10,695 nt of DNA from positions 1 to 10,695 of the forward strand of contig JAADFV010000011.1 of the NCBI GenBank assembly GCA_013152695.1. The letters are read 5' to 3'. The stretch is from Chloroflexota bacterium. GTDB taxonomy: Bacteria; Chloroflexota; Anaerolineae; J102. Within the stretch, counting starts at the first letter, position 1, and each line of letters begins with the position of its first letter. Positions 400 to 10,515 of the stretch are shown here, one piece after another. The position numbers were made by a program, and so were the translations under genes. Below the pieces are notes generated by a model. It had not been told where the DNA came from. It saw nothing but the letters and a program-made list of their open reading frames with translations, and made no database searches.

Positions 400-428
400 T
401 TGTCACTCAGACACCAAGGCAGTATAAT
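400..428 (+). promoter_or_regulatory. Sigma70-type promoter of the stressosome operon
   Basis: A -35 element TTGTCA (400-405, five of six consensus bases) and a perfect -10 element TATAAT (423-428) are separated by exactly 17 bases. Transcription would begin near 434-436, leaving a leader of about 60 bases before the first start codon at 495. It is the only strong promoter I can find, and it lies directly upstream of the first gene, so it probably drives the whole run of nine genes. The site resembles a housekeeping promoter, not a sigma B-type one, although the operon encodes stress-signalling proteins. Confidence 0.75.
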
Positions 429-494: not shown

Positions 495-1382
495 ATGGTA
501 TCTGCAGCGGCTCGGCATAAACTAACAAAGATGTTCTTACATGATCGCAAGGCCATCTTGGATCAATGGCTACAATACTTGCGCAAGCAGGACACAAACT
601 GGGGTGCCTTGATTGATGAATCGACACTCCAGCAAGAATCCCAGGCCTTTTTAGACCTGTTTGCCAAAGCCATTTCCGAAACAGAGGACTGGCAAGACGT
701 CCAATCCTCTGCCTTTGCCCCCTTACGACAGTATCTGGAGAATTTGGCTGACTCTCGTGTTATCCAGGGATTTACTCCATCACAAACAGCGCTTTATATC
801 TTTGCCCTCAAACAGGCCGTTCTGCATGTGGCCCAAGAGGATACTGAGCCTAAAACCAAAGCGCTTACACAATCCTTACTAAACATCGATCTCTTGCTGG
901 ACAAACTGGGCTTGATGACCTTTGACACCTATGTCAATCATCGTGAAGCTCTCATTGCCGAGCAGACCGCCGCCATCCTGGAAATGGCTTCACCTACCTT
1001 ACGGGTGTGGGACGATGTTGTACTGCTCCCCTTGGTAGGGGTAATCGATACGGAACGTGCCCAGGTCATGCTTGACAGCTTACTCAACGCCATCGCCGAA
1101 ACCGAAGCAACCGTTGCCATCCTTGACGTGACGGGAGTACCAGTGATCGATACCCAGGTCGCCAAACATGTCCTCACCGCCGTTGATGGGGCCCACATGC
1201 TCGGGGCAACCGTCATCATCACTGGCGTAAGCGTCGACGCCGCCAAAACCCTGACCAAACTTCGCATTGATCTCGGCAACGTGATCACGCGGGGTACTTT
1301 GCGGGCTGGGCTACGTCATGCCTTACGCCTATCAGGTTATCGGGTCGAAAAACTTTCATCAGGGCCAAAAAGAGGAGCTTAG
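495..1382 (+). CDS. rsbR: RsbR-type stressosome scaffold/sensor (RsbRD-like N-terminus + STAS)
   Basis: This 295-residue cytoplasmic protein would be the sensory scaffold of the stressosome, the complex that holds the kinase RsbT until stress. Residues about 12-150 are helical and resemble the RsbRD-type N-terminal domain, not the haemless globin fold of Bacillus RsbRA. Residues about 172-283 form a STAS domain with the signature LDVTGVPVIDT. Thr186 and Thr220 lie 34 residues apart, as do the RsbT targets Thr171 and Thr205 of Bacillus RsbRA, so both phosphorylation sites appear kept. The ATG at 495 follows GGAGG (483-487) with a 7-base gap, which fixes the start. The rsbS gene begins 2 bases after the stop. 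What the N-terminal domain senses is not visible. The family call is strong, but only one RsbR paralogue is present here, so the full complex may use others encoded elsewhere. Confidence 0.92.
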   Translation: MVSAAARHKLTKMFLHDRKAILDQWLQYLRKQDTNWGALIDESTLQQESQAFLDLFAKAISETEDWQDVQSSAFAPLRQYLENLADSRVIQGFTPSQTALYIFALKQAVLHVAQEDTEPKTKALTQSLLNIDLLLDKLGLMTFDTYVNHREALIAEQTAAILEMASPTLRVWDDVVLLPLVGVIDTERAQVMLDSLLNAIAETEATVAILDVTGVPVIDTQVAKHVLTAVDGAHMLGATVIITGVSVDAAKTLTKLRIDLGNVITRGTLRAGLRHALRLSGYRVEKLSSGPKRGA

Positions 1383-1384
1383 TC

Positions 1385-1747
1385 ATGGACTTTGCAATGA
1401 TGAAACTGGATGATGTGCTACTGGCTCCGGTCAGTGCCTTCATGGATGACGATGATGCCGAGGCTTTTCGTGACCAAGTTCTTACCGAAATCAAGAAAAT
1501 GGAAGCGGCAGGACTGGTGCTCGACATCAGTGGTTTGCCTATTATCGATTCTTTTCTTTCACGTGTGATCAGCGAAATCGCAACCAGTGCCGGCATTCTT
1601 GGCGCCAAATGCGTCGTCGTCGGCATGCGTCCTGCGGTCGCGCTCACCCTCTTACAGATGCAACGCCCCATAGCCGGTGTGGCCCATGCCTCTTCGCTGG
1701 CGCGTGGTTTAGAAAAACTGCGCGCCATGCTGGGGGAGGAGGCCTGA
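1385..1747 (+). CDS. rsbS: RsbS-type stressosome STAS protein
   Basis: This is a single STAS domain of 120 residues, almost the length of Bacillus RsbS (121). It would co-assemble with RsbR into the stressosome core and bind and restrain RsbT. The central motif LDISGLPIIDSFLSRVI places Ser56 at the position of Bacillus Ser59, whose phosphorylation by RsbT releases the kinase. A later MRPAVALTLL segment matches the conserved RsbS stretch. AGAGGAG at 1371-1377, 7 bases upstream, supports the ATG at 1385; in-frame ATGs four and five codons on are less well placed. The stop TGA (1745-1747) shares its last base with the start of rsbT, so the two proteins are probably translationally coupled in fixed ratio. 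Having Ser, not Thr, at the switch site separates it from the RsbR partner upstream. Confidence 0.95.
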   Translation: MDFAMMKLDDVLLAPVSAFMDDDDAEAFRDQVLTEIKKMEAAGLVLDISGLPIIDSFLSRVISEIATSAGILGAKCVVVGMRPAVALTLLQMQRPIAGVAHASSLARGLEKLRAMLGEEA

Positions 1748-2136
1748 TGCAAGTAGCTAAGCTAAAATTGCTGACAGGCCGCGATGTTGTTACTGCCCGT
1801 GAGGTCGTTCGACGAAAAGCACAAGAAATAGGCTTTGGTCTTGCCAAGCAAACACGTCTGGCTACGGCAGTGTCCGAAATTGTACGCAACGCCGTTGTCC
1901 ATGGCTTAGGCGGAGAAATGATCGTCGAACGGCTACAGAAAAATTCACCAATTCTCCGGGTCACCATACGGGATCAAGGTCCTGGCATAGCCGACATCGA
2001 CAAAGCCCTCCAAGATGGTTACAGCACGACCGGCACGCTGGGAGCAGGCCTTCCCGGCGCCCGCCGACTGGTCGATGATTTTAAGATTGAGTCAGCGGTC
2101 GGGCAAGGCACCACGGTGATTATGGAAATGCGATGA
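1747..2136 (+). CDS. rsbT: RsbT serine/threonine kinase, stressosome switch
   Basis: A 129-residue GHKL-fold protein kinase of the RsbT/RsbW/SpoIIAB group, close in length and sequence to Bacillus RsbT (133). It would phosphorylate RsbR and RsbS on activation, leave the stressosome, and switch on a downstream partner. The ATP site is complete: N-box with Glu44 and Asn48 (SEIVRNAVVHG), G1 box DQGPGI (76-81), and glycine-rich lid GTLGAGLPGARRL (96-108). GLPG in this last motif is typical of true RsbT. The start at 1747 lies in a TGATG overlap with rsbS and follows a GGGGGAGGAGG tract (1732-1742). An in-frame start further upstream (1609) would run through rsbS with unrelated sequence and is rejected. 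A second, divergent copy follows directly. Confidence 0.95.
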   Translation: MQVAKLKLLTGRDVVTAREVVRRKAQEIGFGLAKQTRLATAVSEIVRNAVVHGLGGEMIVERLQKNSPILRVTIRDQGPGIADIDKALQDGYSTTGTLGAGLPGARRLVDDFKIESAVGQGTTVIMEMR

Positions 2137-2555
2137 CTCTCACCACCGTTGTCCAACCTTATTCCCGTACCTTTACGATTGACAAGAATAGTGATGTCCG
2201 CCGAGTACGTCGCGCTGTTAGGGCCTTGGCTCGCGGCCTGGGCTTCACTGAGGTGCAAGAATACGAACTGGCCATCGCCGTAAGCGAGCTTGCCCAAAAT
2301 TTAGTGCACCACGCCACCGCCGGCGGCACCATCATAGTGCAATCCATCGAGAAGGAGGGAAGAGGCGGCATCGAGGTGTTTTGCCGCGACCAAGGCCCGG
2401 GTATCAGCGATATCGCCCAATCCCTCCAGGATGGTTTTAGCACGACGGGGAGTTTGGGAGGAGGGCTGGGTACGGTGCAGCGGATGGCAGATGAATTTCA
2501 TATCGAGTCTCCCCCTGAGGCTGGACTCACAATCATCTTTAGAAAATACACATGA
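2133..2555 (+). CDS. Second RsbT-like anti-sigma-type kinase (GHKL ATPase)
   Basis: This 140-residue protein is a paralogue of the preceding RsbT, with the same ATP-site layout: N-box Glu52 and Asn56 (SELAQNLVHH), G1 box DQGPGI (86-91), then FSTTGSLGGGLGTVQRM. The lid has GGGLGTVQRM where RsbT has GAGLPGARRL, and the N-terminus is longer. From family knowledge, this type is often the N-terminal half of fused ATP-binding SpoIIE-type phosphatases encoded after rsbST. Here it is a separate protein, and the phosphatase half is the next gene. The start lies in an ATGA overlap with rsbT, and the stop overlaps the next start (ATGA at 2552-2555). No strong ribosome binding site precedes it, which fits coupled translation. 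Its substrate is unknown; it could modify the same STAS proteins or regulate the adjacent phosphatase. Confidence 0.88.
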   Translation: MTLTTVVQPYSRTFTIDKNSDVRRVRRAVRALARGLGFTEVQEYELAIAVSELAQNLVHHATAGGTIIVQSIEKEGRGGIEVFCRDQGPGISDIAQSLQDGFSTTGSLGGGLGTVQRMADEFHIESPPEAGLTIIFRKYT

Positions 2556-3139
2556 TGCAGTTCGGTCTCGCTAAAAAGTCCCTTTATGGCACCAGCTGGT
2601 GCGGTGATGATGCCTTCACCTTCGATGATAAGGAACGGGCCGTCATGGCCGTCATCGATGGCTTGGGACACTCGCAAAAAGCTGCTGCAGCAGCTCAGGC
2701 CGGCATCGTTCGCTTGCAGGATCACGTCTATCTTCCCCTCGTCGACATGATGAGGACGGTAGAATCTGCCATGCAGGACACCATTGGTGGCGCCGTTGCC
2801 ATTGCCATCGTCCATAAACCGCGGGGACAGATCGAGGTATGTGGGGTTGGTAGCGTGCAACTCCAACTGGCCACCTCCGACAAACTCTATCGCTTCGATG
2901 GTACCCCCGGCATTGCTGGTCATCAAAGCAACCATTATCAACCGCAAATCCTTCCCTATCGACAAGGCGACATCATCGTAATGTATAGTGATGGCATTTA
3001 TTCCTCCTTTAGTGCCAAAGAGCTGATTCGCATCCTCCATCCCAATCCCCAGCGTTTGGCAAGGCAAATCCTCAGCCGCTACCACCGTGGTACTGATGAT
3101 GCGCTGGTTCTTGTGGGGTGGGAACCACCGCGTCCCTAA
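2552..3139 (+). CDS. rsbX: RsbX/SpoIIE-type PP2C serine phosphatase
   Basis: A 195-residue PP2C-fold phosphatase about the size of Bacillus RsbX (199), which resets the stressosome by removing phosphate from RsbS and RsbR. The metal-binding acidic residues are all present: Asp19/Asp20 (CGDDAF), Asp36 in DGLGHS (36-41), Asp147 in YSDGI, and Asp182/Asp183 in TDDALVLV. The middle GGAVAIAIV and CGVGSVQ strands fit the RsbX pattern. There is no regulatory N-terminal domain, so it is not a full RsbU. It overlaps the preceding kinase gene by 4 bases. In related clusters the two are commonly a single fused polypeptide, so the products may act as a complex. A second ATG three bases on (2555) is possible. 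The symbol reflects domain type and context; phosphatase specificity is inferred. Confidence 0.85.
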   Translation: MMQFGLAKKSLYGTSWCGDDAFTFDDKERAVMAVIDGLGHSQKAAAAAQAGIVRLQDHVYLPLVDMMRTVESAMQDTIGGAVAIAIVHKPRGQIEVCGVGSVQLQLATSDKLYRFDGTPGIAGHQSNHYQPQILPYRQGDIIVMYSDGIYSSFSAKELIRILHPNPQRLARQILSRYHRGTDDALVLVGWEPPRP

Positions 3140-3216: not shown

Positions 3217-5190
3217 GTGAACGATGACTTTCTCGACACTTACACCAACATCCTCGAAAACCATTATCTGCACCCAGGCGAAACCTGGTTTGAAAAAGCT
3301 TATCGTTTGGGACGGAATTTTGTAAAGGCAGGCTTTGAGCTGGAAGAAGTCGTCGAACTTCATGACAATGCTCTTCAGCGTTTGAGTGAAAAATACCCCG
3401 ATGCCGATTTTACCGCCGAACGGGGCCATTACCTGCTTGTTCATGTACTCATCGCTTATGCTATGAGTTTCGAAGCCCAAGGCGAGCTTTTGGAACTACG
3501 TTCCAAAGCCCTGTTCGAAAGCGAGCAGAAATATCGTACTCTGGTCGAACAGGCTCACGATGGTATTCTCATTGTGCAAAAAGATCACATCCAGTTCGCC
3601 AATAACAAACTGGGTGAAATGACAGGCCACAAAACAGAAACGCTTATCCAAAAAAATTTGGGCGAATTGATGCATTCGCCAGAGCTATTTAAATATTTGA
3701 ACGAAGGGCTCAATCCCTCCCTCGAATCCCCCTTTTTTGTCATGGGCAATCTCTACACACCCAAGGGAGAAATTCCAGTCGAACTATCGGCCAGCACCAT
3801 CCTATTCCGCCAGCAACCGGCCCATCTTCTCGTCGTTCGTGATTCCCGCGAACGGCTGAACTTTCAGCGCGCGCTCGAAAACCGCAGTCAACGTCTACGC
3901 GCCCTCAATCATATTGCTAGAACCGTAAGCGCCACCCTCGATCTCGACATTCTATTACCCAACGTCTATCAAGAAATCCAAGAAATATTTCAGCCCGATG
4001 CATTTTTCATTGCCCTTTATGATCCCGAAAAGAAAGTGATTGATTACCGTTTTTTAATCGATGAAGGCCAACAGGACACGCCCCAGCAAGGCCCTCTGAG
4101 CTCAGATTTGACTTCGCATGTGATCCGAACTGGCGAGCCTCTCCTCATTACCGATCTGAGTAAGCAACAGGCTGATTTACCAGGTTATCAGACCTGGGGA
4201 ACACATAAAGTCGCGGCCACATGGATGGCAGTGCCCATGATCTTGGGGGAGCGGGTGGTGGGGGTGATGAATGTTCAGCGCTATCATGCCTACGCCTACG
4301 ACGATGATCATCTCGAATTTTTACGAACCATTGCCGACCAGGTCACAGTTGCCATCGAAAATGCCCGTCTCTACAACCAGGCCCAGCATGAAATTGCCCA
4401 ACGGAAGGCGGCCGAAGAAGCCTTGCAAACTTACACATCCAATCTAGAATCTCTGATCGATGCCCGCACAGATGAACTGCGAGAGGCCCAAGAGCAAATC
4501 CTGCGTCAAGAAAAACTCGCTGTTTTAGGCCGGCTTGCCGCCAGCATCAGCCACGAACTGCGCAACCCCCTTGGCGTAATCACCAATGCTGTCTACTATT
4601 TGAAAATGGTGCTATCTGACCAAGATGCCAAAGTTCAAGAATATCTGAACCTCATCGACGATCAGGCCCATAAAGCGGCTAAAATTGCCACCAATCTTCT
4701 CGAATACACCCGTTCCCGCCTGCCCCAACGCGAAATTGTTCAGCTCGAACCCTTTATCTCTCATGTTCTCACCTTGATACCACCCCCTCCCACCATACGC
4801 TGCCATACCGACATTCCTCCCGATCTCCCGTCCATCTTCATCGATTCCATCCACCTCGAACAGATTCTTACGAACCTGATCAATAATGCTTATCAAGCCA
4901 TGCCTGCCGGTGGCGACCTGAGTTTCCTGGCCCAGGTTGCAGAGGACTACGTTTCTCTGGCCGTGCAAGATAGCGGTGAAGGTATGTCTGAAAAAGTTCT
5001 GGCTCACATTTTCGAGCCGTTATTTACGACCAAAGCCCGAGGCATCGGCCTGGGTCTGGCCGTAACACAGAATTTAATCGAGGCCAATGGCGGTCGCATC
5101 GAAGTCGAAAGCCGTGAGGGCGAGGGAAGCACTTTCACCTTATTTTTACCTATCGCCAAAGATGATGAATTTGCAACCTCACAGCCCTAG
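3217..5190 (+). CDS. RsbU-N-domain / PAS / GAF sensor histidine kinase
   Basis: A soluble 657-residue sensor kinase with no transmembrane segment. Residues 4-92 match the N-terminal RsbT-binding domain of Bacillus RsbU, with the same order of motifs: ET-x-aromatic, EEVVELHDNALQRL, then a YAMSFEAQ helix. A continuous helix (about 90-108) leads into a PAS domain (about 106-215), a GAF domain (about 225-387) and a coiled coil. The kinase core has His446 in SHELRNPLGVI, N-box Asn553/Asn557, G1 DSGEGM (585-590), FEPLFTTK and G2 GIGLGLA. It would autophosphorylate His446 and pass phosphate to receivers downstream. The GTG start at 3217 is chosen because GAGGTG (3207-3212) precedes it and the RsbU-type homology begins just after. 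GTG 3118 and ATG 3160 are in frame but lack a ribosome binding site. The domain placement suggests control by RsbT in place of a RsbU phosphatase. Confidence 0.88.
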   Translation: MNDDFLDTYTNILENHYLHPGETWFEKAYRLGRNFVKAGFELEEVVELHDNALQRLSEKYPDADFTAERGHYLLVHVLIAYAMSFEAQGELLELRSKALFESEQKYRTLVEQAHDGILIVQKDHIQFANNKLGEMTGHKTETLIQKNLGELMHSPELFKYLNEGLNPSLESPFFVMGNLYTPKGEIPVELSASTILFRQQPAHLLVVRDSRERLNFQRALENRSQRLRALNHIARTVSATLDLDILLPNVYQEIQEIFQPDAFFIALYDPEKKVIDYRFLIDEGQQDTPQQGPLSSDLTSHVIRTGEPLLITDLSKQQADLPGYQTWGTHKVAATWMAVPMILGERVVGVMNVQRYHAYAYDDDHLEFLRTIADQVTVAIENARLYNQAQHEIAQRKAAEEALQTYTSNLESLIDARTDELREAQEQILRQEKLAVLGRLAASISHELRNPLGVITNAVYYLKMVLSDQDAKVQEYLNLIDDQAHKAAKIATNLLEYTRSRLPQREIVQLEPFISHVLTLIPPPPTIRCHTDIPPDLPSIFIDSIHLEQILTNLINNAYQAMPAGGDLSFLAQVAEDYVSLAVQDSGEGMSEKVLAHIFEPLFTTKARGIGLGLAVTQNLIEANGGRIEVESREGEGSTFTLFLPIAKDDEFATSQP

Positions 5191-5219: not shown

Positions 5220-6773
5220 ATGCCAAAACTTCCCTATTCACCTCTGTTCAAACATAGGCCACGTGGCCGTCACCTTCTTGCCCTTGCCGTCGTCGGTATT
5301 TATGTCCTGGCTTGGCTAAGTGCCCGTGCCCATAACTTTGTCCTTCCTCAGAGCTTATTACTGGTTCCCATCTTTACCTTTGCCATTCTTTATGGCTTAT
5401 GGGGAGGAATTGTAAGCGGCGTCTTGTTCTGGCCTTTGCATATCTTCTTGCTTGCCCCTGCCACAAATATCAGTTCTCGCTGGGCTGCCCTTTTAGATGG
5501 CTGGACCGTGTACGCCATTTTTCTCAGTATCGCTGTGTTTGTAGGCTACATGAAAGAGCTGATTGATCGCCTGCAACATGAAAATGAAGAGCACCGGCGA
5601 ACACAACAGGCCCTGGAAAAACAAATCCATCAAAATCAGCTCATGCTCAACACCATGTTGGATGGCTACGTTCTCACCGACACCGAGGGCCGAATCTTAC
5701 ATGTGAATCCAGCCTACTGTGCGATGACGGGCTATTCTGCCGAAGAGCTCTTGCAAATGAACATCTATGAAATTGGGGTGCAACTGAGTGCCGAAGAAAT
5801 TACAGAACGCATTCAGGAAATCATAACGCAGGGGGGTGCTCGCTTCGAGACCAAACATTTACACAAAGATGGGAGGATTCTCGATTTTGATCTCAGCATC
5901 GCCCTCATGCAAACCGAAGAAGAACCCTTGCTTGCCGCCTTCATCCGTGACATTACGGAGCGTAAACAGGCACAACAAAAACTGCAAGAATACGCCGAGC
6001 AGCTCGAAGAAATGGTGGAGGAACGCACCCTTGCCCTGCAGGAGGTCCAGGAAAGGCTCCTGCAACAGGAAAGGCTGGCGACTCTCGGACGCCTGGCCAG
6101 CGGCGTCAGTCACGAACTACGGAACCCCCTGGCCGTAATTGCCAATGCCGTCTATTACCTCAAGCTCGTGCAGACGAATGCACCGCCGACCATCATCGAA
6201 TACCTCAATCTCATCGATTCCGAAATCAAGGCAGCAACCCACATCATCGCCGAACTCCAGGACTTTGCGAAAACGCCACTGGCCCAACGCAAAGCCGTTA
6301 TCCTCACCGAGGCCGTGGCAGAGGCACTACAACGCCGCCCCATCCCTCCCCACATCCAAACCCACATTCAAATCCCCGCCGACCTCCGTCCTGTTCTCGT
6401 CGATCCCGAACATCTCGCCCGCCTTCTCGATGAGCTCATTAAAAATGCCTACGATGCCATGGAGCAAGGCGGTGAATTGCGTATCAGTGCTACCCTCGAA
6501 GAAGAGGAAGAGCAACAATTCATCCGTCTTGACATCGCAGACACAGGTGCAGGTCTCACTCCCGAAGCCCAAAAACATGCCTTTGAACCCCTCTTTAGCA
6601 CCAAAGCGCGAGGGATAGGTTTGGGCCTCACCCTTTGCCAGGCGTTGGTTGCCGCCAACAGTGGTCGCATAGCCCTCCGGCCCGGCCCTAAACAAGGTGC
6701 CATCGCCAGCTTATGGTTCCCCGCCGTACTCTTAGACATGACTGTCTCTCTGGAATCTGGCGAAAACAAATGA
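5220..6773 (+). CDS. Membrane-bound PAS sensor histidine kinase
   Basis: A 517-residue inner-membrane kinase. Four hydrophobic stretches (about 18-37, 41-60, 61-80 and 89-111) form an N-terminal membrane domain with very short loops, suggesting sensing within or near the membrane. A PAS domain follows (about 140-250; NPAYCAMTGYSAEEL), then a long charged coiled coil (246-290) and the kinase core: His298 in SHELRNPLAVI, N-box Asn409 (ELIKNAYDAM), G1 DTGAGL (441-446), FEPLFSTK and G2 GIGLGL. The core is clearly related to that of the preceding kinase, including NAVYYLK and EYLNLID, so the two are probably paralogues with exchanged sensor regions. The gap to the preceding gene is 29 bases, with no obvious ribosome binding site before the ATG. 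Its last bases overlap the next gene (ATGA), coupling it to the two-receiver protein, a plausible phosphotransfer partner. Confidence 0.9.
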   Translation: MPKLPYSPLFKHRPRGRHLLALAVVGIYVLAWLSARAHNFVLPQSLLLVPIFTFAILYGLWGGIVSGVLFWPLHIFLLAPATNISSRWAALLDGWTVYAIFLSIAVFVGYMKELIDRLQHENEEHRRTQQALEKQIHQNQLMLNTMLDGYVLTDTEGRILHVNPAYCAMTGYSAEELLQMNIYEIGVQLSAEEITERIQEIITQGGARFETKHLHKDGRILDFDLSIALMQTEEEPLLAAFIRDITERKQAQQKLQEYAEQLEEMVEERTLALQEVQERLLQQERLATLGRLASGVSHELRNPLAVIANAVYYLKLVQTNAPPTIIEYLNLIDSEIKAATHIIAELQDFAKTPLAQRKAVILTEAVAEALQRRPIPPHIQTHIQIPADLRPVLVDPEHLARLLDELIKNAYDAMEQGGELRISATLEEEEEQQFIRLDIADTGAGLTPEAQKHAFEPLFSTKARGIGLGLTLCQALVAANSGRIALRPGPKQGAIASLWFPAVLLDMTVSLESGENK

Positions 6774-7531
6774 ACAACGCCCACATTCTCATTGTTGACG
6801 ATGATCAAAGTCTGGCCGACACCACCGCCGATATTCTTTCCATCAGCGGCTATCCGGTACAGGTAGCCTACAACGGTGCCCAGGCCCTAAAAAAACTGCG
6901 TTCCCTGCGTTTTGACTGTATCCTTTCTGATGTTAAAATGCCTGATATAAGCGGCGTGGAACTTTACTTACAGAGCAGGAAGTATTCACCCCGCCTTCCT
7001 TTTGTGCTGATGACTGCCTACGCCGCTCCCGAACTTATCAATCAAGGGCTCGAAGCTGGCATTCTCGCGGCATTGACAAAACCTCTAGACATGCCCCGAG
7101 TTCTCTCCTTTCTGGCCCTCCTCGACACGGACATCAGCATCATCGCCGTTGATGATGATTTCCTGTTCTGTCAGACCCTCGGTAATGAACTCCGTCACCG
7201 AGGGTATCATATTGTCAGCAGCACCGATCCCCAGCACGCACTCTCCCATATGATTGCTGACACCCAGGTGATATTAGTAGATTTTGCGCTGGGTAACAGT
7301 AAAGACCTCGACGTCTGGCGCACAATTCATAACCAATATCCGCACTTACCCATCATCCTCATCAGTAGACGCCAATATCTTTGGCAAGAGGCCCTCGCCA
7401 CTGCCCCTGACCTCGCTTCATTCCTCCACCTGAGTAAGCCCTTGCAAACCAACAAACTCACCACCCTCATTGAGGGTATTCGCCGACAACGTCTGCAAAA
7501 TGCGCTGAATCAAGAGCCGGTTCCTCGATAG
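6770..7531 (+). CDS. Tandem two-receiver response regulator without output domain
   Basis: A 253-residue protein made of two CheY-like receiver domains and little else. REC1 (about 4-118) has acidic Asp10/Asp11, phosphoacceptor Asp54 (ILSDVKMPD), Thr82 and Lys104 (TKP). REC2 (about 122-240) has Asp128/Asp129, Asp171 (ILVDFAL), Ser199 in the Thr/Ser position and Lys223 (SKP). Both sites look functional, though REC2 is more divergent and lacks the usual MP after its Asp. There is no DNA-binding, enzymatic or phosphotransfer domain, so it may act as a phosphate shuttle or sink between the kinases, or by protein contact. The ATG at 6770 overlaps the kinase stop (ATGA). An upstream in-frame start (6713) would add residues read through the kinase gene, and the receiver fold begins right after 6770. 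Confidence 0.88.
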   Translation: MNNAHILIVDDDQSLADTTADILSISGYPVQVAYNGAQALKKLRSLRFDCILSDVKMPDISGVELYLQSRKYSPRLPFVLMTAYAAPELINQGLEAGILAALTKPLDMPRVLSFLALLDTDISIIAVDDDFLFCQTLGNELRHRGYHIVSSTDPQHALSHMIADTQVILVDFALGNSKDLDVWRTIHNQYPHLPIILISRRQYLWQEALATAPDLASFLHLSKPLQTNKLTTLIEGIRRQRLQNALNQEPVPR

Positions 7532-7629: not shown

Positions 7630-10515
7630 ATGCCCCAACAATCTGCTATTCCCAACACATCCACTATCGTCGTTATCGATGATGATCCCGGCTTTTGCCG
7701 CACACTCACCGATATCCTGGAAACACGTGGCTTACATGTAGTCGCCATCCCTGACGGTAACAAAGCCCTGAATATGATTGCTGCCAACAAACCGGCAGCC
7801 GTCTTGATCGATCTGCGTCTCCCTAAGGTGTCGGGGCTTAAATTGTTGGAGCAAATCAAGCAGGTGTCCCCAGAAACAGAGTGTATTTTGCTCACAGGCT
7901 ATGCCTCGCAGGAATCAGCCATTGCTGCGGTCAATCTTGGGGCCTTTAGCTATCTGCAAAAACCTTACGATCTGGATCAGCTGATCCTCACCGTCCAGCA
8001 GGCCGTGCAAAAATACCAGGGTACGATTTCCCTGCGCCAGCGTACGGCTGACCTCGATCTCATCAATCGCCTGAACCATGCCGCCAACCATGGCGCCAGC
8101 CTCTCAGAATTAGTCGACATCCTTTCGCGCGGTGTAAAAGAGAATTTCGGCATCTTTTCGGTAACGCTCTACCTGCTCACCCCTGATCGTACCCATCTTG
8201 AGATGGTGCAAACCTCCCTTGAAAATTCTTATTTGCAGCGGATCAGCGAAATTATCCATACCGATATACCGCCTGTTCGCCTCCCCCTGGATAAGGTACC
8301 CGACACAGCCGCACTCATCGAAAAAAAAGAACCCACCCTTCTCGAAGATCCAAAGCAAATCGAACAGTGGATCAGCAATTTTGTCGAAACCGAAACCTTA
8401 ACAGATCTCCTGCGTACGACAGTGCGTAAGGCTATTCCTCTCATTATTGACGAGCTCAACTTTGCCGCCGTCTTATGTATCCCATTGTACTCAGAGGAAG
8501 GCCCCATTGGCTTACTTGATTTTACCAGTCTCACCCCTCTGCCCGCGGGTGTGGTCGAACGCCTTACAGGTTTTAGTGAACAGCTAACCGCCATCCTCCA
8601 ACGTAAGAAAACTGAAGAAGCGCTGGCCCGCATGAGCCATGAAAATGAGCTCATCTTGAATACGATGGCAGAGGGTATTTTGGGATTGGATTTATTGGGA
8701 CGTCACACCTTTGTCAATCCAACAGCAGCCCGCATGCTCGGTTACACTATCAGCGAGCTCCTGGGACAGCCCGCCCACACCCTGTGGCATCACCATCACG
8801 CAGATGGCACACTCTATCCTGAGGAAGAATGCCCCATCTACCAAACCCTGGAACAAGGCGTCGTACATTCGGTCGATGATGATGTGTTCTGGCGCAAAGA
8901 CGGCAGCATAATCCCCGTGGCGTACACCAGTGCCCCTCTCATTGAAGATGGAGAAATCATTGGTACAGTCGTCGCTTTTCGCGATATCAGTGCCCAAAAG
9001 GAAGCAGAAGCGCAGTTGCAGCATCTTTTGACTCAAGTCAAAGAGCAATCTCAGCAACTGACGGAAGTCATGGATGCCGTCCCCGAAGGCGTCCTCTTCC
9101 TGGACAATCAGTCTTACATTGTCCTGGCCAATCGCGTGGCTCGAGAAGATTTAGAGTTCTTGGCCGGGGCACAGGTGGGTGATCTGCTCGAGCGCTTGGG
9201 TGATCGTCCTCTCAACGAGCTCCTTACTTCCCCTACAAAAGGGACCTGGCACGAAGTACAACATGAAGGCCATATCTTCGAAGTCATCGCCAGACCCATT
9301 GTCACGGGTACAGAGACAAAAGGCTGGGTCATGGTCATCAACGACGTGACCGAAGAGCGTACCCTGCAACAACAGGTGCAGCAGCAAGAGCGCCTGGCCG
9401 CGATCGGACGTCTGGCCGCCGGTATCGCTCACGACTTCAACAACATTCTTGCCGTCATCGTTCTTTATGCAAAACTGGCTTTACGTGGAGACGACATCTC
9501 TCCGACCCTGGAGGACTATCTCCAAACCATTCTCGAACAAACCAAACGTGCCAGCAATCTCATCCAGCAGATCCTCGATTTCAGCCGCCGTGCTGTTCTC
9601 GAACGCCAAGCCACCGATCTCAACCGCTTCGTTGCTTCCCAGGTTGAGCTCTTGCGACGCACCCTTCCCGAAGACATCGACATCGTCTGGACCCCTTATG
9701 GCCGCGAAGCCATGGCCAACATCGATGTCACCCGCATCCAACAGGCGATCCTGAACATTGCCATGAATGCTCGTGACGTCATGGTCGACGGGGGAAAACT
9801 CCAAATTACCCTTAAAGCCTATGACGATACCGATAACAAAGAATGCCTCACTTGTGGTCGCCCCTTAACAGGTTCCTGGTATGCCATCGAGTTTACTGAT
9901 ACGGGCCCAGGCATCGATCCGGAGATACTCCCTCACCTTTTCGAACCCTTCTTCACGACCAAAGAAGGGGGACAGGGAACCGGTTTGGGATTGGCGCAGG
10001 TGTTCGGTATCATGCAGCAGCATGAAGGCCACGTTTGGGTACAATCGCAAAAAGGCAAAGGAGCCACCTTCACCCTCCTTCTTCCTGCCGTGGCTACCAG
10101 CGCTGTGCCTCTACCCGAAACAAGAGACGATGTGGTGGTCTTGGGCCATAACGAGACTATTCTTGTCGTCGAAGACGACAAAATGGTACTGCAGGCCCTT
10201 TCCCTCACCCTCAAAGACCTCCATTATCGCGTCATTTCCGCTGCTCACGGCCGCGAAGCTTTGGACATTTTGAAAAAACATGGAAAAGAAATTTCCCTGG
10301 TTTTGACCGACATGGTCATGCCGGTCATGGGCGGTAAGGCACTGTTCTACACGATCAAGGAACGCCGCTATAACATCCCCGTGATGATTATCACCGGCCA
10401 CCCCATGGAAGCAGAGCTAGAAAAACTACGCCAGGAAGGCCTTGGAGACTGGATACTCAAGCCCCCTGACCCCCTCATACTTTCTCAGAAAATTGCCCGT
10501 CTCCTGCGGAAATAA
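7630..10515 (+). CDS. Hybrid histidine kinase REC-GAF-PAS-PAS-HK-REC
   Basis: A 961-residue soluble hybrid kinase. The N-terminal receiver (about 12-128) has Asp18/Asp19, Asp61 (LIDLRLP), Thr89 and Lys111. A GAF-like domain follows (about 143-325), then a PAS domain (about 338-455) with the HHHHADGTLYPEEECPI and FWRKDGS motifs of a common PAS subfamily, and a second, weaker PAS (about 476-575). The kinase core has His601 in IAHDFNNILAVI, N-box Asn709/Asn713, G1 DTGPGI (757-762), FEPFFTTK (771-778) and G2 GTGLGLA (783-789). A CLTCG motif (Cys739, Cys742) sits between the N-box and G1. The C-terminal receiver (about 842-960) has Asp849/Asp850, Asp894 (LTDMVMP), Thr922 and Lys944. Input at the first receiver and output at the second suggest a relay node fed by the upstream kinases. 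The reading frame stays open upstream but has no other start codon. Final output partner unknown. Confidence 0.92.
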   Translation: MPQQSAIPNTSTIVVIDDDPGFCRTLTDILETRGLHVVAIPDGNKALNMIAANKPAAVLIDLRLPKVSGLKLLEQIKQVSPETECILLTGYASQESAIAAVNLGAFSYLQKPYDLDQLILTVQQAVQKYQGTISLRQRTADLDLINRLNHAANHGASLSELVDILSRGVKENFGIFSVTLYLLTPDRTHLEMVQTSLENSYLQRISEIIHTDIPPVRLPLDKVPDTAALIEKKEPTLLEDPKQIEQWISNFVETETLTDLLRTTVRKAIPLIIDELNFAAVLCIPLYSEEGPIGLLDFTSLTPLPAGVVERLTGFSEQLTAILQRKKTEEALARMSHENELILNTMAEGILGLDLLGRHTFVNPTAARMLGYTISELLGQPAHTLWHHHHADGTLYPEEECPIYQTLEQGVVHSVDDDVFWRKDGSIIPVAYTSAPLIEDGEIIGTVVAFRDISAQKEAEAQLQHLLTQVKEQSQQLTEVMDAVPEGVLFLDNQSYIVLANRVAREDLEFLAGAQVGDLLERLGDRPLNELLTSPTKGTWHEVQHEGHIFEVIARPIVTGTETKGWVMVINDVTEERTLQQQVQQQERLAAIGRLAAGIAHDFNNILAVIVLYAKLALRGDDISPTLEDYLQTILEQTKRASNLIQQILDFSRRAVLERQATDLNRFVASQVELLRRTLPEDIDIVWTPYGREAMANIDVTRIQQAILNIAMNARDVMVDGGKLQITLKAYDDTDNKECLTCGRPLTGSWYAIEFTDTGPGIDPEILPHLFEPFFTTKEGGQGTGLGLAQVFGIMQQHEGHVWVQSQKGKGATFTLLLPAVATSAVPLPETRDDVVVLGHNETILVVEDDKMVLQALSLTLKDLHYRVISAAHGREALDILKKHGKEISLVLTDMVMPVMGGKALFYTIKERRYNIPVMIITGHPMEAELEKLRQEGLGDWILKPPDPLILSQKIARLLRK

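Follow-up and report, generated by a model that had tools for sequence, protein, structure and literature searches.

In some alpha-, beta- and gamma-Proteobacteria, genes downstream of rsbX encode proteins with RsbU_N, which are probably involved in stressosome signalling, according to the accessible part of PMC9237108. Histidine kinases with RsbU_N also occur in the rsbT operons of some Proteobacteria, for which control through the linker was proposed, and a Moorella GGDEF enzyme headed by RsbU_N was cited as a target of RsbT (both in the accessible part of PMC12143880). The same part of that paper implicates E24, Y28, I74 and I78 of RsbU and R19, R23 and N24 of RsbT in binding, and describes a charge swap as evidence that R91 contacts D92. 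No direct test of RsbT on an RsbU_N kinase was found in the accessible parts of PMC9237108, PMC12143880 and PMC4976288, and the stems Chloroflex- and Acidobacteri- were absent from the main texts of PMC9237108 and PMC12143880.

The window, which here means the whole stretch of DNA analysed (10,695 nucleotides), is a clean, well-preserved case, from another phylum, of this design already in print for Proteobacteria (PMC9237108, PMC12143880). Nine genes, all in one direction, were arranged across it (Table 1). The best explanation of the whole is that the output of the stressosome is a cytosolic RsbU_N histidine kinase switched by the docking of RsbT, and this was considered probable.

Table 1. 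Features of the window, with positions counted from its first nucleotide
Feature	Position	Strand	Evidence or remark
Promoter-like site TTGTCA-17-TATAAT, 11/12	400..428	+	upstream of rsbR; consensus match only
RsbR-like, RsbRD_N + STAS	495..1382	+	Pfam E 2.5e-21 and 8.5e-10; both STAS threonines present
RsbS-like STAS protein, IDSF serine	1385..1747	+	Pfam E 2.7e-9; 92% identity to G612 protein
RsbT-like switch kinase	1747..2136	+	HATPase_c_2 E 5.9e-14; 81% identity to G612
Second RsbT-like ATPase (W2)	2133..2555	+	HATPase_c_2 E 8.6e-15
RsbX-like single-domain PP2C phosphatase	2552..3139	+	SpoIIE family E 9.7e-10; alignment
RsbU_N-PAS-GAF-HisKA-HATPase histidine kinase, 657 aa	3217..5190	+	Pfam, database protein
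RsbU_N four-helix bundle + linker helix, residues 1-111 (predicted)	3217..3549	+	AlphaFold2, pLDDT 86 and 92
Probable membrane PAS histidine kinase (HK2)	5220..6773	+	Pfam; hydrophobic stretches between residues 17 and 115
REC-REC protein, no recognised output domain	6770..7531	+	two Response_reg stretches; start and 51% identity common to L103
Hybrid kinase REC-GAF(weak)-PAS-PAS-HisKA-HATPase-REC	7630..10515	+	Pfam; 70% identity in L103

Neighbouring genes from rsbS to rsbX overlapped by 1-4 bases and a gap of 77 bases separated rsbX from the kinase gene, and from this spacing alone the cluster may be co-transcribed. Promoter-like sites numbered 11 in the window against a shuffle mean of 8.9, and an Rfam scan of the window gave no match at the gathering score. 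The W2 and rsbX-like genes between rsbT and the kinase gene were absent from the preliminary description of this DNA. Further downstream, the core of HK2 was related to that of the RsbU_N kinase (40-42% identity, for the proteins of the window and of L103), and the gene after HK2 encoded two receivers, as if one per kinase.

In the kinase, RsbU_N (Pfam PF08673) was matched with 36.2 bits (E 6.8e-9; curated cut-off 25.5) at residues 41-116 of the ORF opening at 3118, which are residues 8-83 when counted from the GTG at 3217, and the N-terminal 141 residues alone gave 39.0 bits (E 9.1e-10). The RsbU-type N-terminal domain, which had been recognised by eye in the preliminary description, was thereby confirmed. 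No other Pfam family was listed for these 141 residues at E up to 10, in a search whose HMMER filters drop most weak matches, and a single-sequence search of the PDB placed N-terminal chains of B. subtilis RsbU at the top, weakly (2j6z, E 0.028). PAS, GAF, HisKA and HATPase_c each exceeded their own Pfam cut-offs, which agreed with the earlier reading that they stand in place of the phosphatase: the PP2C catalytic domain of RsbU was replaced by a HisKA domain with its phospho-His (SHELRNP motif) and HATPase_c, as in a histidine kinase. No transmembrane stretch was revealed by hydropathy in the 657-aa protein. A PLSDB search with the kinase listed 5000 records, all below 60% identity, and the rows inspected were PAS/GAF kinases or unannotated.

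The putative start at 3217 was supported by an AGGTG located 4 nt upstream of the GTG, by the 657-aa length of the database entry for the window kinase itself, and by the kinase of the closest relative (genome G612), which had a GTG start at the matching place. AlphaFold2 gave a mean pLDDT of 86.1 and a pTM of 0.55 for residues 1-240 (21 aligned rows), with predicted helices at 3-18, 23-37, 42-59 and 67-111 followed by the PAS strands, and a pLDDT of 92.3 for residues 1-112, with helices at 3-18, 23-37, 42-59 and 68-111. The four-helix bundle and linker helix of RsbU_N were present in these models, and the last helix (67-111) was predicted to enter the PAS domain unbroken, as had been proposed for the helix that follows the RsbU-type domain.

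The linkage with rsbRST claimed earlier also held, since Pfam and alignments supported rsbR, rsbS and rsbT as neighbours of the kinase gene. The IDSF serine of RsbS and the two STAS threonines of RsbR lined up with Bacillus, and the motifs of RsbT and RsbX were retained in the alignments; we take the serine and the threonines to be phosphosites. The order R-S-T-X of a stressosome module was found together with these phosphosites, with the extra ATPase gene between rsbT and rsbX, and the stressosome core looks functional as judged from its sequence. A quick tree placed the window RsbT among RsbT proteins. W2 fell in a clade of 55 rows (SH-aLRT 90; quick, unfinished tree) and is probably related to the ATPase that forms the N-terminus of fused ATPase-PP2C proteins. 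The reading of W2 as a true RsbW was rejected, because in this quick tree it grouped with the PP2C-fused ATPases and the two RsbW rows stood apart on a long branch.

The presence of two small ATPases raises the reading that W2 is the partner of RsbU_N, or that both ATPases compete for it, which seems quite unlikely. It agrees with the position of W2, nearer to the kinase gene, with the R19, R23 and D92 equivalents present in W2, and with the two or more small ATPase genes in 15 of the 71 RsbU_N loci; yet 35 of the 71 (such as L014, L104 and L106, several loci being short) showed one small RsbT-like ATPase gene, and the grouping of W2 with the PP2C-fused ATPases in the quick tree also speaks against it. 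RsbT itself is the preferred partner.

The closest relatives found were Chloroflexota. When the RsbU_N portion was used as a database query, two proteins were found among 118 candidates, namely the window's own and P0002. The latter matches the kinase encoded on a 9896-base contig of G612, a genome from the same order as genome G196. This contig kept the window order R-S-T-W2-X-kinase, with identities of 65% for R, 92% for S, 81% for T, 46% for W2, 55% for X and 61% for the kinase. In G196, which belongs to the same phylum as a Chloroflexaceae genome, four kinase/receiver genes were found in window order (62, 55, 51 and 70% identity); its 14-kb contig (L103) held no rsb genes, and genome searches for RsbT and RsbR were negative in this assembly, the completeness of which was not given. 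This kinase train without rsb genes might come from loss, separation or incomplete assembly. G196 is a counter-example to RsbT control, unless the assembly is without its rsb genes.

A kinase kept where no RsbT was found would suit a merely structural RsbU_N, a dimerisation and linker module which binds no RsbT and leaves sensing to PAS and GAF; this was judged unlikely. Across the kinases of the window, G612 and G196, RsbU_N (65-79% identity) was better conserved than PAS (44-57%) and GAF (56-62%), which counts against such a role, with the linker at 71-76%, HisKA at 72-80% and HATPase at 65-69%.

Stand-alone RsbU_N-like proteins of about 104-112 aa, 64% identical to each other, were encoded in G196 (L116:7800-8138) and in G612 (L126:6834-7148), the one in L116 scoring below the Pfam cut-off. 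They lie beside an mrp-like ATPase gene. Such a protein could be a competitor for RsbT.

GTDB contigs were scanned with the window RsbT, and the best 80 of at least 382 confirmed relatives together with the window made up 81 loci, in 20 of which RsbU_N was detected with a custom profile. Eight of the 20 were from Bacillota, 332-344 aa long and encoded where RsbU normally lies, and are presumably RsbU phosphatases; one was a phosphatase (L054), two were short ORFs (L075, L076), and nine were kinases (the window, L014, L022, L037, L040, L045, L056, L058 and L060). Besides the window, 10 of the 11 non-Bacillota cases were run against Pfam: L014, L060, L045 and L056 reached the RsbU_N cut-off, L054, L037, L022 and L058 matched below it, and for L040 and L076 no RsbU_N was listed despite the match to the custom profile. 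In L045 and L056 an RsbT gene lay tail to tail with the RsbU_N kinase gene on the opposite strand, and a second RsbT copy was present in the rsb cluster. In L005, titled Bacillus subtilis DE0224, RsbU was unlike the B. subtilis sequence deposited in the PDB and resembled that of Lederbergia (L004), so this contig may be misnamed.

RsbU_N was further surveyed in genomes with alignment A1 at E <= 1e-3. The genome counts are lower bounds, because only part of the first-look candidates was scored in many genomes, and those outside Chloroflexota include the seed genome. RsbU_N was found in at least 11 of 400 genomes of Chloroflexota, at least 15 of 247 of Acidobacteriota (the phylum of a Terriglobia genome), at least 7 of 199 of Planctomycetota (the phylum of a Singulisphaera genome), at least 10 of 339 in the phylum of a beta-proteobacterium, at least 5 of 148 in that of a Syntrophobacteraceae genome, and at least 1 of 200 of Gemmatimonadota, the seed itself. 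The best RsbU_N ORF was labelled a kinase in 42 of 56 non-seed loci, some of which list one gene pair twice, and RsbT was located within about 1.5 kb at 12 of the 15 non-seed Acidobacteriota places. All ten proteins chosen from RsbT-linked loci had RsbU_N above the Pfam cut-off and a kinase core. Two RsbU_N domains were encoded close together in L174, L176, L177 and L192, from the phylum of the beta-proteobacterium.

RsbT (E <= 1e-12) was present in 49 of the 400 Chloroflexota genomes, by their handles the same draw as in the RsbU_N survey. It was present in 10 of the 11 genomes with RsbU_N, the exception being G196, and in 39 of the 389 others (one-sided Fisher p 3e-9, kinship not corrected), a co-occurrence which is not expected of a mere dimerisation module. 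The kinase gene adjoined rsb genes in 8 of the 11, in two of them before rsbR; G196 and all three copies in G313 were unlinked, and the match in G242 was weak (E 5e-4). The minimal forms L106, L112 and L113, in which RsbU_N was joined directly to HisKA and Pfam listed no other input domain, also argue against sensing by PAS and GAF alone. Linker lengths of the direct RsbU_N-HisKA fusions fell in modulo-7 classes 0 (4), 3 (3) and 1 (1), a pattern which was dropped as a signature with 8 cases being too few; the linker was 34 residues in all 6 HisKA_3 cases.

The contact residues were compared by eye in an alignment of the window with B. subtilis RsbU: E24 was kept (E22 of the window kinase) as was I78, I74 was changed to V, Y28 to E and R91 to L. 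The Y28 position was variable in the linked relatives as well, and position 76 was H in the window and E in 89% of linked domains. The lack of Y28 and R91 fits a dimerisation module, as does the location of 22 of 75 RsbU_N domains apart from rsbT. On the RsbT side, R19, R23 and D92 were rejected as a discriminating signature, because they were kept in most RsbT proteins whether RsbU_N was nearby or not.

The E24 equivalent was followed in a set of 75 distinct RsbU_N domains, drawn from the window and 70 further loci, with identical aligned domains removed and two entries excluded, the weak hit L098 and the short protein of G612 (L126); 45 domains were linked (an RsbT-like ORF within 6 kb) outside Bacillota, 8 were from Bacillota and 22 were unlinked. 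One row was gapped at this position both among the linked domains outside Bacillota and among the unlinked ones, and E was found in 44/44 linked, 8/8 Bacillota and 12/21 unlinked domains (p 9e-6 for linked outside Bacillota against unlinked), kinship being uncorrected and the unlinked domains scoring lower on average. When Bacillota were counted as linked, E22 had the lowest p among 86 positions (3e-6; the next was 1e-4), and at matched scores (34-60 bits) the difference became smaller, E being kept in 8/8 linked and 5/11 unlinked domains (p 0.018). Y9 showed no difference between the groups, and H49 was kept in 22/22 unlinked and 38/45 linked domains. E was also kept in four unlinked copies of G313 and G221, genomes with RsbT elsewhere, and in both RsbU_N copies of G196. 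This glutamate signature is a further point against a dimerisation module.

The idea that RsbT controls the kinase, put forward in the preliminary description, therefore gained indirect support from the RsbT co-occurrence and from the E24 signature in RsbT-linked domains, and was weakened by the differing Y28 and R91 positions and by the G196 kinase. In the preferred reading, RsbR, RsbS and RsbT with the feedback phosphatase RsbX and W2 as a helper ATPase would form the stressosome, and the histidine kinase would be its output in place of the RsbU phosphatase. Under stress, RsbT would be released from the RsbR:RsbS core, and free RsbT would dock on the dimeric RsbU_N and the helix after it, which would fix the helix pair entering PAS and alter the activity of the HisKA-HATPase core. 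Two products of the downstream genes, the REC-REC protein and the hybrid kinase, might then receive the phosphate, and PAS and GAF would probably provide a second input. The binding of RsbT, the dimerisation, the direction of the effect and the path of the phosphate are parts of this scheme which we infer.

RsbT could instead act by phosphorylating the kinase, which was rated very unlikely. PMC9237108 proposed this for downstream kinases, but those were proteins without detected RsbU_N, and although in the accessible part of PMC4976288 the Moorella cyclase is said to be phosphorylated, the activation of RsbU is described as by binding in the accessible part of PMC12143880, and RsbT kinase activity was not needed to activate the phosphatase target, according to the title of Kang 1998. 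Docking of RsbT on RsbU_N is retained as the preferred mode.

A second arrangement was observed among the same 81 loci (the best 80 of at least 382 relatives plus the window), where the type of RsbX differed. PP2C was fused to an ATPase in 43 of the 81, none of them with RsbU_N, a single-domain RsbX was present in 24 (19 with RsbU_N), and no RsbX was found nearby in 14 (one with RsbU_N); fused against single RsbX gave a Fisher p of 2e-12 for RsbU_N, kinship not corrected. Fused RsbX does not strictly exclude RsbU_N, and a rule to that effect was rejected because both occur in L171 and L172, two of the 71 RsbU_N loci. The next ORF could be picked in 41 of the 43 fused loci, and 28 of these 41 opened with an RsbT-like ATPase domain (as in L001, L012, L049, L010, L013 and L057), 23 of the 28 being labelled as kinases. 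The domain match was weak or partial (24-33 bits) in six of the 28, and several of the other 13 ORFs look wrong-frame. By Pfam, the N-terminal HATPase_c_2, HisKA and HATPase_c were seen in all six checked, with HisKA of L012 just under the cut-off. The 41 ORFs gave no sign of a hidden RsbU_N when searched with the filters disabled (best E 0.79), and the 71 RsbU_N loci, many extending no further than about 1.5 kb each side, yielded no kinase ORF headed by an RsbT-like domain. Stressosomes may be wired to kinases in two alternative ways, in trans by RsbT docking on an RsbU_N kinase, as in the window, and in cis by fusion of an RsbT-like ATPase to the kinase; the two were never seen in one cluster in the loci examined, and the choice would largely track whether RsbX is single-domain or ATPase-fused, with L171 and L172 as exceptions. 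This generalisation is tentative and somewhat doubtful.

If RsbT drives the kinase, a Ser/Thr partner switch would feed a His-Asp relay directly, and stressosomes would have a defined output in phyla for which no report of such a link was found. With the minimal RsbU_N-HisKA forms, the coiled-coil toolkit idea from the literature could be tested on a small kinase. The interest lies in the E24 signature, the spread over phyla and the RsbT-fused second design; no report of the spread beyond Proteobacteria, the glutamate signature or the RsbT-fused kinase design was found in the accessible part of the open-licence literature, and priority for the other phyla is not certain.

The window shares with the Vibrio vulnificus stressosome the tie between stressosome genes and two-component genes, but no RsbU_N was detected in the downstream proteins there (PMC9237108). 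In Moorella MtG, an RsbU_N-GAF-GGDEF protein, RsbU_N is likewise placed on a different output under RsbT, which is a cyclase there and a kinase in the window (accessible parts of PMC12143880 and PMC4976288). The RsbT-RsbU pair of Bacillus subtilis has in common with the window the RsbU_N family, the E24 equivalent, the hydrophobic contacts at I74 (to V) and I78 and an RsbT nearby; in the window, however, the output is a histidine kinase instead of a phosphatase, Y28 and R91 differ, and no RsbV or sigma factor gene was recognised. The nearest likeness is to the Proteobacterial RsbU_N kinases (PMC9237108; AlphaFold2 dimer of MBI3545564.1 in PMC12143880, both for the accessible parts), which also carry RsbU_N in front, lie beside rsbT and rsbX, and were proposed to receive the same RsbT input. 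Unlike them, the window groups with Chloroflexota, has PAS and GAF domains and a separate W2, its RsbR carries RsbRD_N where the RsbR surveyed in PMC9237108 is a globin, and its kinase is followed by three more kinase/receiver genes.
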